Origin: Alphaproteobacteria bacterium
Lineage (GTDB): Bacteria > Pseudomonadota > Alphaproteobacteria > Micropepsales > Micropepsaceae
DNA length: 64,000 bases
Reading direction: 5' to 3'
Assembly: GCA_947474565.1 (NCBI GenBank)
Contig: CANJIS010000002.1
Span: 124,001-188,000, forward strand
Below the pieces are notes generated by a model. The model had not been told where the DNA came from and searched no databases. It saw nothing but the letters and a program-made list of their open reading frames with translations. Made by a program: the position numbers and the translations under genes. This document shows, piece after piece, positions 19,191 through 30,268 of the stretch; positions within the stretch are counted from its first letter, which is position 1; each line of letters starts with the position of its first letter.

Positions 19191-19790
19191 CTATTCGCAG
19201 GCCCGCGGTGTGGATTTGCCCAGCGGCCGGATGTCGTGAATCAGCATCTCCACAATGGGAAAGGGCCAGCTTTCGATACCCCGGAATGAGGGCTGACCCG
19301 GGCCGGGGGCGTTGAGCGGGCAAGTCGCGGTCGGCTTCTGGTTGATGCCTTTGACGGTGACCGCGGAGATCACCACATCATACTTGATGGCAGAGGTGGT
19401 GGTGTTGACGGAGGTGAGGACCATGTCCGGCTTGCCGTCGGTCTGCTTGAACTGAAACGCCAGCGTCTTTTCTCCAGCCGCCGCCTTCGCGAAAGCGTGC
19501 TTACCGGAAGCATCAACCGCCTCCAACAGGCGGGGCTTGCCGGAACCATTCCCGGCCAGAGCCAGCGTGATGGTCTCACCCGGATAGATGATCACGTTGC
19601 CGTTGGGATCGACATAGGGATAGGGGTTGGTATCGATCTGGCCCGAGCTGCCTTCAGTACGCAACGTCAAGGTGCTGACTTTGCGGCAGGGTACCTGGGC
19701 GCACATCTGCTTGAGCATCTGGGCGGAGGGCTGCCCAACAGCCGGTACAGCCGCCAAAAGCAGCATTCCAGATAGCCAGATCGCACGCAT
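19191..19790 (-). CDS. Exported hypothetical protein, tandem paralogue 1
   Basis: 199 aa with a signal peptide (MRAIWLSGMLLLAAVPAVGQ, cleavage after about residue 20). The mature part carries YPGETITLALAGNG, cysteines in QVPCRKV, TATCPLNAPG and the C-terminal ACE, and an IKYDVVISAV beta segment. It probably folds as a small periplasmic beta-sandwich. It is clearly paralogous to the next gene, 11 bp away. No known family recognised. Confidence 0.8.
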   Translation of the reverse strand: MRAIWLSGMLLLAAVPAVGQPSAQMLKQMCAQVPCRKVSTLTLRTEGSSGQIDTNPYPYVDPNGNVIIYPGETITLALAGNGSGKPRLLEAVDASGKHAFAKAAAGEKTLAFQFKQTDGKPDMVLTSVNTTTSAIKYDVVISAVTVKGINQKPTATCPLNAPGPGQPSFRGIESWPFPIVEMLIHDIRPLGKSTPRACE

Positions 19791-19801
19791 ATCAATACTC
19801 C

Positions 19802-20413
19802 CTATTCACAAGCCCGGCTGGCCGATGCCGCAAGCGGGCGGATGTTCCGAATGATCATCCGCATAATAGGGTGCTGCCAGCTTTCGGTGTTGAAGAACGC
19901 CGCCTGCCCAGAACTGGGCGGATTGACTGGGCATGTCGAAGTCCCGACCCGGTCAATACCCCGGTCACTCACGGCGGACATCACTGCGTCGTATTTTATC
20001 ACCGCGCTGGTGGCGTTGCTGACCATGAGCATCATGTCTGTCTTGCCGTCCATCTGGGAGAACTGAAATTCCAAGGTCGCGTCGTTGGCGGAGGGTTGGG
20101 CGAATTGCTGAGCGCCTTTGGCATCAGCGAATTTCAGCAGGCGGGGCATTCCCGTGCCGTCCTTGGCCAAGGCCAACGTGATGGTCTCGCCCGGGTAAAT
20201 GATCAGATTGCCGCTGGGATCGAGATAGGGATAAGGGCCCGTCTCGACCTCCCCCACGCGGCCATCCGGCCCGCGCAAGGGAATCTTTGTAACATTGCGG
20301 CAGGGGACCTGAGCGCGCATCTGCTTGATACGAGCGTCGGGATCACTGGCGGGCTGCCCAAAAGCCGGGGTAGCCGCCAAAAGCAACATCCCACATAGCC
20401 AGATCGCGCGCAT
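19802..20413 (-). CDS. Exported hypothetical protein, tandem paralogue 2
   Basis: 203 aa, signal peptide MRAIWLCGMLLLAATPAFGQ almost identical to its neighbour's. Shared positions include VPCRNV, the NLIIYPGETITLALA stretch, IKYDAVMSAV, TSTCPVNPP and the terminal RACE. The tandem, co-oriented arrangement shows local duplication with substantial divergence since. Both are probably transcribed together and secreted to the periplasm; the function is unknown. Confidence 0.8.
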   Translation of the reverse strand: MRAIWLCGMLLLAATPAFGQPASDPDARIKQMRAQVPCRNVTKIPLRGPDGRVGEVETGPYPYLDPSGNLIIYPGETITLALAKDGTGMPRLLKFADAKGAQQFAQPSANDATLEFQFSQMDGKTDMMLMVSNATSAVIKYDAVMSAVSDRGIDRVGTSTCPVNPPSSGQAAFFNTESWQHPIMRMIIRNIRPLAASASRACE

Positions 20414-21557: not shown

Positions 21558-21921
21558 AGCCCAGGCGCGCAAGACCATGCTGGGTGTGGAAGGCACATCG
21601 GAAGGGCCCTACTTCGGACGGCCTTCGGTATTTTACGGCGAAGCCTTTGGCGGGCGCGTGCATGACAAGGAAGAGGCCGTGGCGCTTCGGGTCGCCAGTA
21701 TCGAGATGCGCGATGTGATGCTGGAGGCGGAGCCCAAGCTTTTCTACATCACCGATCACTATCGGCCCTGGCCGATGCTGCTGGCGCGGTTATAGGCGCT
21801 GGATGTGAAGACGCTGAAGAGTCTGGTGATGGCGCGGATCGGTGAAGTCCAGGCCAAGGCGGCAAAGAAGCGCGCCAAAAAGCCGGCGAAGAAAGCCGCG
21901 AAGAAAAAGAAGAAAGTTTAG
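21547..21921 (+). pseudogene. MmcQ/YjbR-like protein interrupted by an amber codon
   Basis: The frame begins MLSKAQARKTMLGVEGTSEG and runs through AVALRVASIEMRDVMLEAEPKLFYITDHYRPWPMLLARL to a TAG at 21793-21795, giving 82 aa. The same frame continues without a break as ALDVKTLKSLVMARIGEVQ and a Lys/Ala-rich tail to the TAG at 21919-21921. The part after the stop looks like the normal C-terminal helix of YjbR/MmcQ-type DNA-binding proteins. It is therefore a gene with one in-frame nonsense codon: a fresh pseudogene, a readthrough gene or a base-call error. Confidence 0.72.
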
Positions 21922-22448
21922 CGCGGCGAGCGTTTGGCCAAGATTCTTTGAAGCGTACGGCGATGCATGTTCAAGCGGCGCGCCGTTTCCGACACGTTAT
22001 GGCCGCACAGTTCATAGACCCGCTGAATATGTTCCCAGCGCACACGGTCGGCCGACATGGGATTTTCCGGCGGCTTGGGCTTGGAGCCCGGCGTCGCCAT
22101 CAAGGCGGTGAGAATGTCATCGGCATCGGCAGGCTTGGGCAGATAATCGACGGCGCCATACTTCACCGCTGCCACGGCGGTGGCGATATTGCCGAAACCC
22201 GTCAGAACCACGACGCGCGTGGAAGGGCTGACGGCGTGCAGGGTTTCCACCACATCCAGGCCATTGCCGTCATCCAGCTTCAGATCCACCACCGCATAAG
22301 CGGGCGGGGTTTCCTTGGCGCGGGCTTTACCCTCGGCCACCGATTCCGCGATCGCCACCGTGAAGCCGCGCGTTTCCATGGCGCGAGCAAGCCGTTCCCG
22401 TAGCGGACGATCATCCTCCACAATAAGCAGGGTTTTTTCTTCGCTCAC
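21918..22448 (-). CDS. actR: Redox response regulator ActR/RegA/PrrA
   Basis: 176 aa. Receiver domain with acidic pocket VEDD (residues 10-13) and phospho-acceptor Asp55 in VVDLKLDDGNG, followed by a Fis-type helix-turn-helix (NVSETARRLNMHRRTLQRIL) highly characteristic of the RegA/ActR/PrrA family. It works with the upstream kinase to control redox-responsive genes. The start is the GTG at 22448, whose GTGA overlaps the stop of a truncated copy of its own 5' end. Codons 6-21 use less-favoured synonyms (CTT, ATT, CGT, CTA, CGG) than the rest of the gene. Confidence 0.95.
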   Translation of the reverse strand: MSEEKTLLIVEDDRPLRERLARAMETRGFTVAIAESVAEGKARAKETPPAYAVVDLKLDDGNGLDVVETLHAVSPSTRVVVLTGFGNIATAVAAVKYGAVDYLPKPADADDILTALMATPGSKPKPPENPMSADRVRWEHIQRVYELCGHNVSETARRLNMHRRTLQRILAKRSPR

Positions 22449-22588
22449 GCCATGGCCTTTTTATTGGTCGCGCGGCCGGACGGAAAACCACGAGGCCGCA
22501 CTTTTCCTGGCCGACGCTCGGCGCGCGCCAAGCGCTCGCGCAGGGGGCGGTCGTCTTCGACGATCAGGAGGGTTTTCTCTACTGTCAT
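22445..22588 (-). pseudogene. Orphan, synonymously diverged copy of the actR 5' end
   Basis: A 47-codon frame, ATG at 22588, TGA at 22445-22447. Residues 4-23 (ending in VEDDRPLRERLARA) are identical to ActR, yet 16 of these 20 codons differ at synonymous positions. After codon 23 it runs into a palindromic repeat and is unrelated to ActR. Its TGA overlaps the GTG start of actR, so if translated it would be coupled to it. It could be a remnant gene 5' end, a leader peptide or a footprint of an insertion. Confidence 0.75.
22465..22507 (-). repeat. GGAAAAGTG...TTTTCC palindromic element, copy A
   Basis: Read on the minus strand it starts GGAAAAGTGCGG, has the inverted arm TTTTCC and ends GCGACCAA. 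The end lies about 16 nt before the actR start. Same orientation relative to the downstream gene as the other copies at 22596-22628, 29538-29577 and 30140-30180. Confidence 0.75.
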
Positions 22589-22595
22589 ATCCACT

Positions 22596-22628
22596 TGTCG
22601 CGCGGCAACCGCGAGGCCGCACTTTTGC
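22596..22628 (-). repeat. Palindromic element, copy B (shortened)
   Basis: Read on the minus strand: GCAAAAGTGCGGCCTCGCGG then a 10-bp deletion relative to copy A and the ending GCGCGACAA. It lies 7 nt upstream of the orphan actR start, so element plus gene 5' end are tandemly repeated with a period of 140 bp. Confidence 0.65.
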
Positions 22629-22683
22629 GGGCCGTCGCTCCGGGCGGGGACATAGTACCCGAGACCGGCTGCGTCAATCGGTC

Positions 22684-24075
22684 TTAATCAGGCGCCGTGG
22701 TGGGAGGTTCTTCCCCGTCAATCACGCCCCGCGCCCAATTAATGGATACACGCGCGCCGCCGCTGTCGGGGTTTACCGCTTTAACCACGCCGCCGGTCTG
22801 TTCCAGCAGCACTTTGGCGATGAAAAAGCCAAGCCCCATGCCTTCATGCTCGTCCAGGGAACCGCGCGGGCCCATCTCGGTCTCGCCCAAAGCATAATGG
22901 CCGGGCCGCGAGGTGACATAAGGCTCGCCGATCCGCTCATAAATCTCGGGCGCGAAGCCGGGGCCGTCATCTTCGATCACGACAGAAAGCTGCGTCTCGG
23001 TCCATGCGGTGGTAATGCGGACCTGGCCGGAGGCAAAATCGGCGGCATTTTCGATCAGGTTGCCAAGACCGTGCAACAATTCGGGCACGCGCCAGACTTG
23101 CGGCTCCGGCGTGCCGGTGTCGGGCGCGGTGACTGCAATATCTATATCGCTCCCACGATAGGAAGCGGCGATATCATCCAGCAGCGCGCCAAGCGGCAAA
23201 CGCGAGGTGGCGCCCAGCATACCCTCTTCGGGCGTTGCCAGCCGGGCAATGATGGCGCGGCAACGCTCTGCCTGGGCGCGCAGCAAACGCACATCTTCTA
23301 TCTCAGGCGAATTCTCTTTCATGCCGCGTTCCAGCTCGCGCGCCACCACCGCGATGGTGCCGAGCGGCGTGCCCAGCTCATGCGCCGCAGCTGTCGCCAA
23401 AGCACCGATGGAAGCCAGACGATGTTCGCGCGATAGCGCCAATTGCGTGGCGGCAAGGCCCGCCGACATGCGGGTGGCTTCAGAGGCGATGCGCCAGGCA
23501 TAGACCGAGGTAAAGCCGATGCCGATGATCAACGCCGCCCAGATGCCGGCCTGATAGAGCTGCGGCAGCATCAAGGGCTCGCCCACCGGCCAGGGCAGCG
23601 GGTAATGGACCATGCCGATGATGGAAACCGAAATGAAGGCGATGAACGCAAGGATCAGGGTGTTGCCCAGATTGAGCGTGGCGGCGGCGATAACCACCGG
23701 CGCCACGAACATCAGCGAAAAGGGATTGGCGATGCCGCCAGTGAAATAAAGCAGAGCCGCCAGCTGCACCACGTCAAAGGACAGATAGAAGGTGGCTTCG
23801 CGATTGGAGAGGCGGTGGCTGGGCGGATAGCGCAAAGTCAGCACCACATTCAGCACCGCGCTCGCCGCGATGGCCGCGATGCAATATGTAAGCGGCAGGG
23901 GATAACCCAGCGCGAAATAAACCAGGAAAAGCGCCACCGATTGGCCGGCAATGGCCAGCCAGCGCAGAACGGACAAGGTGCGAAGCCTGACCCGGCCGCG
24001 TTCGGCCCCGGTGGGCGAGGGAAAATATACCCTGGGTCTTGAGACTTTTGCGCGCTCCCGCGCTGCTGCCGCCAC
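22684..24075 (-). CDS. actS: Redox sensor histidine kinase RegB/ActS/PrrB
   Basis: 463 aa. About six N-terminal membrane helices (roughly residues 35-195) contain the quinone-sensing GGIANPF motif at 113-119. The H-box AAAHELGTPLGT has phospho-His232. Cys272 lies exactly 40 residues after it, the same spacing as the redox-active His225/Cys265 pair of Rhodobacter RegB. A HATPase domain with DDGPGF and GMGLGFFIAK follows. Intact, so a functional aerobic/anaerobic redox sensor is likely. Divergent from sco and upstream of actR on the same strand. Confidence 0.95.
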   Translation of the reverse strand: MAAAARERAKVSRPRVYFPSPTGAERGRVRLRTLSVLRWLAIAGQSVALFLVYFALGYPLPLTYCIAAIAASAVLNVVLTLRYPPSHRLSNREATFYLSFDVVQLAALLYFTGGIANPFSLMFVAPVVIAAATLNLGNTLILAFIAFISVSIIGMVHYPLPWPVGEPLMLPQLYQAGIWAALIIGIGFTSVYAWRIASEATRMSAGLAATQLALSREHRLASIGALATAAAHELGTPLGTIAVVARELERGMKENSPEIEDVRLLRAQAERCRAIIARLATPEEGMLGATSRLPLGALLDDIAASYRGSDIDIAVTAPDTGTPEPQVWRVPELLHGLGNLIENAADFASGQVRITTAWTETQLSVVIEDDGPGFAPEIYERIGEPYVTSRPGHYALGETEMGPRGSLDEHEGMGLGFFIAKVLLEQTGGVVKAVNPDSGGARVSINWARGVIDGEEPPTTAPD

Positions 24076-29522: not shown

Positions 29523-29537
29523 GCCCGACTTTATCCA

Positions 29538-29577
29538 TGGTCGCACGGCCGGACGGAAAACCGCTGCACACTTTTCC
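29538..29577 (-). repeat. GGAAAAGTG...TTTTCC palindromic element, copy C
   Basis: Minus-strand reading GGAAAAGTGTGCAGCGG, arm TTTTCC, end GTGCGACCA. It ends 15 nt before the start codon of the VanX-like gene, the same orientation and spacing as copy A at actR. Confidence 0.75.
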
Positions 29578-29600
29578 TAGCCGCGCTTATATTACCCGCG

Positions 29601-30104: not shown

Positions 30105-30139
30105 GCTTTCGGGTTATAGGGTTGTTGGAGCGTCGGTCC

Positions 30140-30180
30140 GGAAAAGTGGTTTCCCGGTTTTCCGCAGACCGCGCGACCAA
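30140..30180 (+). repeat. GGAAAAGTG...TTTTCC palindromic element, copy D
   Basis: Plus-strand GGAAAAGTGGTTTCCCGG, arm TTTTCC, end GCGCGACCAA. It lies 11 bp upstream of tRNA-Arg in the same orientation, extending the pattern seen at actR and the VanX-like gene. Confidence 0.7.
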
Positions 30181-30191
30181 ACGCTAAGTAC

Positions 30192-30268
30192 GCGCCCGTA
30201 GCTCAGCTGGATAGAGTGCTGCCCTCCGAAGGCAGAGGTCATAGGTTCGAATCCTATCGGGCGCGCCA
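30192..30268 (+). tRNA. tRNA-Arg (anticodon CCG)
   Basis: 77 nt including encoded CCA. Acceptor GCGCCCG/CGGGCGC, D arm GCTC...GAGT, anticodon stem CTGCC/GGCAG with loop CTCCGAA (anticodon CCG, reads CGG), T arm ATAGG-TTCGAAT-CCTAT. All four arms pair well. Confidence 0.96.

Follow-up and report, generated by a model that had tools for sequence, protein, structure and literature searches.

A tandem repeat of a palindromic element and the first 23 codons of actR, with synonymously diverged copies

Lowered GC content and weak mRNA structure are known from the 5' ends of coding sequences. Intact actR of the locus described here resembles the genes so characterized, at least as outlined in PMC12204400, in carrying AT-ending codons within its first ~20 codons. 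Homology-facilitated illegitimate recombination, in the account given in part by PMC3240628, combines homology at one end with an illegitimate join at the other and leaves behind a diverged partial duplication, the kind of structure to which we compare this locus. The CGTC-tagged or REP-type repeats of Alphaproteobacteria, which include Rickettsia RPE-4/6, are similar to the repeat E of this locus in being dispersed short palindromes that end in CCA, as far as the description in PMC3733652 goes. We analysed a 64,000-nucleotide stretch of DNA, here called the window, in which a unit composed of one such palindromic repeat and the first 23 codons of actR is present twice in tandem.

Layout of the actS-actR locus and its repeat

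Read along the minus strand, the locus runs in the order actS, E1, orphan actR start, E2, 16-base AAGG leader and the GTG of intact actR. The features are:

22684..24075, minus strand: actS, the ActS/PrrB/RegB histidine kinase gene, upstream of the duplication (NF033792, 535.6 bits)
22596..22640, minus strand: E1, a shortened, 45-nt copy of the same dispersed repeat as E2, upstream of the orphan
22520..22588, minus strand: orphan 5' copy of actR (codons 1-23, MTVEKTLLIVEDDRPLRERLARA; ATG at 22588)
22445..22588, minus strand: orphan ORF of 47 codons, which runs through E2 and whose TGA overlaps the actR GTG by 4 nt (GTGA)
22465..22519, minus strand: E2, a 55-nt copy of the dispersed palindromic repeat, joined directly to orphan codon 23
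22449..22464, minus strand: leader of intact actR, 16 bases, with AAGG seven bases 5' of the GTG
22380..22448, minus strand: 5' block of intact actR, codons 1-23, duplicated and diverged at synonymous sites
21918..22448, minus strand: intact actR, encoding the ActR/PrrA/RegA redox response regulator (GTG start; 176 aa; NCBIfam NF033791; Pfam Response_reg and HTH_8)

Both actS and actR score above their NCBIfam equivalog cut-offs. Intact actR reaches 310.9 bits against NF033791 (cut-off 250) over residues 4-176, which places it in the ActR/PrrA/RegA group, and the product of the orphan ORF gives a weak ActR match (residues 4-26, E 0.00083) that falls far under the same cut-off. A scan of the whole window against Rfam at gathering scores returned two tRNAs and nothing else, and a search of a plasmid collection returned 25 records with actR homologs at 60-80% identity, the best covering 64% of the query. 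Elsewhere in the window, two adjoining minus-strand ORFs (199 and 203 aa, 19191-20413) look like tandem paralogs, with repeats of 146 nt (74%), 78 nt (85%) and 37 nt (89%) across the pair at spacings of 611-623.

E1 and E2 are members of a dispersed, genus-level family of palindromic repeats. At least 28 matches to a 221-base leader query, the query included, are found in the window's own genome with 40 of the 63 candidates scored. The consensus stem of 19 chosen and aligned copies has 17 pairs, four of them with changes on both sides, and dispersed copies with such a conserved stem-loop are what is expected of a REP-type or CGTC-tagged repeat. The end tag is not invariant, since some of the 19 aligned copies have CATC, CGAC, CGCC or CAGC in place of CGTC. 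A search for a Y1 tyrosine transposase (RAYT, PF01797) found none in the window's genome, with 5 of 14 controls positive. Across the order, a match to one copy (E <= 0.001) occurs in 25 of 96 genomes, 24 of them in the genus; few candidates were scored per genome, and copy numbers from this search are lower bounds.

We further note additional copies of E in the window at 29529-29583 and 30128-30181, the latter lying close upstream of a tRNA gene (30192-30265). Two copies at other loci (L019:1366-1452 and L028:1499-1592) hold a second, nested palindrome (CGTCGCC..GGCGACT) in the loop, and copies on L027 and L029 have longer apical inserts, indicating that the loop of E varies in both length and sequence. 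When 28 placements of E were scanned for flanking duplications (two more rows that repeat places in the window were left out), the actR case was clear, with a score of 56 against a shuffle maximum of 34. The L027 copy was marginal (34 against 30), and copies on L016 and L025 and one on L019 gave p of 0.02-0.04, none above the shuffle maximum.

The unduplicated state is seen in relatives. In G091 a single E stands directly 5' of intact actR (..gtcccccgcc, then GAGCGTCGG..GCGCGACaaggttgaatATG). One E-like element was found upstream of actR by pattern match in G070, G071 and G069, and one E with a long inner insertion by eye in G014; the E1-orphan segment of the window occupies the position held in these five genomes by the repeat and the actR start. 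A pattern search found no E upstream of actR in G009. That genome has at least nine copies of E elsewhere and none at actR (L035), and its actR-linked element may have been lost. No second actR-like start lies within 230 bases upstream of any of 56 genus actR genes, and the same scan recovers the orphan of the window. From these observations, the E upstream of actR predates the doubling, and among the genomes seen the doubling of the actR start is special to the window's genome (G000). A tree of 17 non-overlapping genes around actR resolves the closest genomes as ((G000,G009),G091), with support of 96/98 for the inner pair and p-AU of 0.018 and 0.028 for the alternatives.

Synonymous divergence and codon usage of the two copies

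The two copies encode the same residues in different codons. In codons 5-23, 15 of 19 codons differ between the intact block and the orphan (16 of 20 in codons 4-23), and all differences are synonymous. As the orphan has no amino-acid change relative to the intact copy in codons 4-23, it is either young or constrained. An earlier note had proposed, from codon style, that the functional gene carries a replaced 5' end and that the orphan is native. The direction of this proposal is favoured by comparison with relatives. The intact block differs from G091 at 15 of 19 codons and from G009 at 13 of 19, with nine codons unique to G000 relative to both; the corresponding values for the orphan are 5, 8 and 2. 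For the rest of actR, 49 of 137 codons differ from G091, close to the 68-gene median of 0.375. The orphan together with E1 matches G091 at 83% over 141 query bases. The intact block is an outlier, and the orphan looks, as judged from its sequence, like ordinary native DNA.

The rarity of such divergence was measured against several backgrounds. Among gene starts with at least 15 comparable codons none of 31 reaches the divergence of the intact block from G091, and among those with at least 10, one of 53 does. Of 14175 windows of 19 synonymous codons in G000/G091 orthologs (67 genes, actR excluded), 40 have 15 or more differences and nine have 16 or more. Nine G000-unique codons, the maximum seen, are reached by 0.18% of 3421 windows, the window mean being 2.96. 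With G091 as outgroup, codons 7-23 show 13 changes unique to the intact copy and two unique to the orphan. Codons 1-6 show the reverse, with four sites unique to the orphan and one to the intact copy, and there the intact copy is nearer G091.

A genus-wide comparison drew on 56 actR genes, 54 of them full length, recovered among the 68 other genomes of the genus that were searched. Against each of the 56 relatives the intact block differs at nine or more codons (of 16-19 comparable). Corrected for position, its excess over the genus is 0.158, and none of 54 other genomes shows this in the block; a value as high is reached by 214 of 8316 windows, and such windows occur at some position of actR in 17 of 54 genomes. 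By the uncorrected measure intact actR ranks second of 55, behind G016. The position-corrected excess falls to zero at about codon 22-23, which, within the resolution of 19 codons, bears out the earlier claim that the change lies exactly at the end of the duplicated stretch.

The codon preferences themselves are less distinctive, and the observation is sharper in divergence. The claim that the first 21 codons of intact actR are deviant holds for the place and for the presence of CTT, ATT, GAT, CGT, CTA, CGG, CTT and GCT; the duplicated stretch is 23 codons long (22380-22448), and GAT is no deviant codon (0.53, with GAC at 0.47). The mean log relative adaptiveness of codons 5-23 is -0.82 for the intact block and -0.31 for the orphan, and the latter, equal to that of the rest of actR (-0.31), agrees with the description of the orphan as written mostly in genome-preferred codons. 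A sliding window of codon adaptation, suggested as a check, does recover a low 5' block, although not a rare one. A score as low is found in 2.6% of 18997 windows of 19 codons and at 6 of 66 other gene starts, and a drop as large at 4 of 66. Windows of actR itself starting at codons 151 and 157 are nearly as low (-0.68 and -0.72). The 66 control genes are those whose start is shared with G091, and these gene nulls were drawn from about one contig of the genome rather than genome-wide. With 6 of 66 gene starts as low and the end of actR nearly so, codon adaptation alone does not carry the conclusion; it is weak evidence for an odd 5' end, and while the orphan does look native and the intact 5' end odd, codon style is no proof of that direction.

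Third-position GC is more discriminating. It is 0.47 in the intact block and 0.74 in the rest of actR, and no other gene start of 66 is as low. Within the genus, 3 of 56 actR genes (G025, G026 and G030) are at or below 0.47 over this block, and in 2 of 54 (G025 and G030) the drop is as large. The possibility that such codons are simply common at gene 5' ends, which would have undercut the earlier claim, is thus borne out in part for codon adaptation and not for third-position GC or divergence. Over the 17 genes around actR, third-position GC in G000 is 0.738, the lowest of eight genomes (the next is 0.761), and the lineage may be drifting toward AT.

Origin of the duplication and its present role

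The arrangement would be explained by a short head-to-tail partial duplication whose unit is E, leader and actR codons 1-23. At the junction, codon 23 (..GCGCGCC at its end) abuts the base of the E hairpin (GAGCG..); a four-base microhomology, CGCC, would have served for the join, provided that the flank resembled that of G091. The G091 flank, CGCC/GAGCG, has CGCC in common with the orphan end, four bases only; the window's own E1 flank, CCCCGCCCG/GAGCG, is two bases off it, and from this flank the junction would need the loss of two bases. The upstream copy (E1-orphan) would be the native start, severed after codon 23, and the downstream copy (E2 and the intact 5' end) would supply the working gene. 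Divergence of the two as alleles probably preceded their joining, which would then not have involved an identical self-copy. Related DNA may have been taken in through homologous pairing within actR at one end and through microhomology at the opposite end, the course of homology-facilitated illegitimate recombination.

A recent joining of long-diverged alleles would explain most with least, because the orphan is unchanged in codons 4-23 and unique changes stand at 13 to 2 in codons 7-23. We tentatively favour, at a little short of an even chance, the joining of two diverged versions in a tandem partial duplication with import from a related, unsampled strain or species. Such an import is consistent with the marks CCAGG, CCGTCCGG and GACCA that E2 has in common with G070/G071 and the mark GACAAG that E1 has in common with G091, with the end of the genus-corrected excess at about codon 22 and its absence from the 54 other genomes, and with G014 (86%) as the next-best match of the intact block, besides itself, within 96 order genomes. 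Several observations weigh against it. The 3' crossover would need to fall almost exactly at codon 23, and no close donor of the block was found in the 96 order genomes or, at E 1e-4, in 385 genomes drawn from the class. Dispersed copies elsewhere in this genome (L010 and L018) carry the E2 marks too, and the left edge of E2, CGAGCG, is G091-like, where G070/G014 have GGAGCG instead. Like G091 and G009, the intact block has retained MSEEK and METRGF, together with the rare CTT-GCT pair of G009 at codons 20-21, and its codons 1-6 are nearer G091 than those of the orphan. The uncorrected rank, the comparable windows in 17 of 54 genomes and the nine or more codon differences from each of the 56 relatives point the same way. 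Phylogeny of the 5' fragments, the other suggested check, does not decide the matter: with the 60-nt block, none of the groupings tested is rejected at the 0.05 level (p-AU from 0.063 to 0.315), a single clade of intact, orphan, G091 and G009 in the 60-column tree having a p-AU of 0.063. Replacement of the 5' end by foreign DNA is thus not proven, given the lack of a close donor in these genomes, the retained MSEEK, METRGF and CTT-GCT, the equally low adaptation at 6 of 66 gene starts and the equally low third-position GC of three genus actR genes.

The main rival is fast synonymous change after self-copy: the lineage would have duplicated its own start, by a template switch at the E hairpin with CGCC microhomology, and the working 5' block alone would then have changed fast, for example by selection on the new translation start beside E2. 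We consider this rather unlikely. It gains from a junction that fits a G091-like own flank exactly, from the native MSEEK and METRGF, from the recurrence of low third-position GC at the actR start in G025, G026 and G030, from the lowest third-position GC of the eight compared genomes (0.738), and from the 9 of 16 differing sites in codons 5-23 that are A/T in the intact copy and G/C in the orphan. It would, however, have to place 13 unique changes against two in codons 7-23 without decay of the orphan there, E1 and E2 carry different subtype marks, and the start-region fold is steadier than 97% of 600 synonymous recodings, which opposes a recoding that opens the start. Given differences at 15 of 19 codons, a divergence reached by only 40 of 14175 windows, a self-copy after the G000/G091 split is unlikely at ordinary rates.

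It is improbable, in our estimate, that the intact gene is wholly native, the E1-orphan having been added from a G091-like relative and the odd start codons reflecting a lineage-specific shift. G000 and G009 are sisters (96/98) with CTT-GCT at codons 20-21 in common, the orphan equals G091 at 13 of the 16 sites where it differs from the intact copy, and no coincidence of crossover point is needed. The outlier rank of the block on the G000 branch (0.2-0.3% level) would nevertheless coincide with the duplicated stretch by chance, and the orphan is just as unremarkable if taken for native sequence. We give hardly any credence to an assembly artefact in which alleles of two strains were joined. 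The assembly has 39 contigs and a strain mix could yield two diverged alleles in tandem, but only a few bases are shared at the junction, the reading frame of actR is unbroken and the genome is listed as 99.84% complete and 0.1% contaminated. Usual assembly overlaps are far longer than such a junction.

The folding predictions also bear on the present role of the locus. The actR start region is predicted to pair with codons 20-24, and the real block (mfe -39.2 against a mean of -31.4) is more stable than 97.2% of the 600 synonymous recodings. A recoding that served to open the start was rejected on the comparison with the 600 recodings, although with the orphan codons swapped into the intact block the start is about as paired (unpaired 0.234 vs 0.231). 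ActR may be expressed from the AAGG-GTG or through translational coupling with the orphan ORF, and the GTGA overlap and the predicted fold would fit coupled translation. In an elaborate form, the locus would be a maintained control device in which translation of the orphan ORF opens the E2 and start hairpins, ActR is made by coupled translation only, and recoding of almost all synonymous sites in the working copy prevents loss of the repeats by recombination; we regard this as very doubtful. On a simpler view, ActR synthesis continues unchanged and the orphan is debris.

Significance and comparison with described systems

Partial duplication at a palindromic repeat is an ordinary type of event. 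This locus illustrates in compact form how the start of a redox regulator gene can be doubled, with the gene kept intact, by a small hairpin repeat together with a microhomology of a few bases. Its importance would be greater if the orphan leader controls ActR synthesis, or if recoding shields such duplications from loss.

Compared with homology-facilitated illegitimate recombination as PMC3240628 partly sets it out, the event here would be read from one sequence, without donor or lineage history; the identifiable donor that marks such products was not found in the 96 order and 385 class genomes. Relative to the weak mRNA structure at coding 5' ends outlined in PMC12204400, the predicted fold of the actR start region is more stable, not less. 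E departs from the CGTC families, so far as PMC3733652 describes them, in its CGTC, which is not invariant and is preceded by GGAG, and in its size, with ~55 nt and 17 pairs compared with stems of 8-9 bp.
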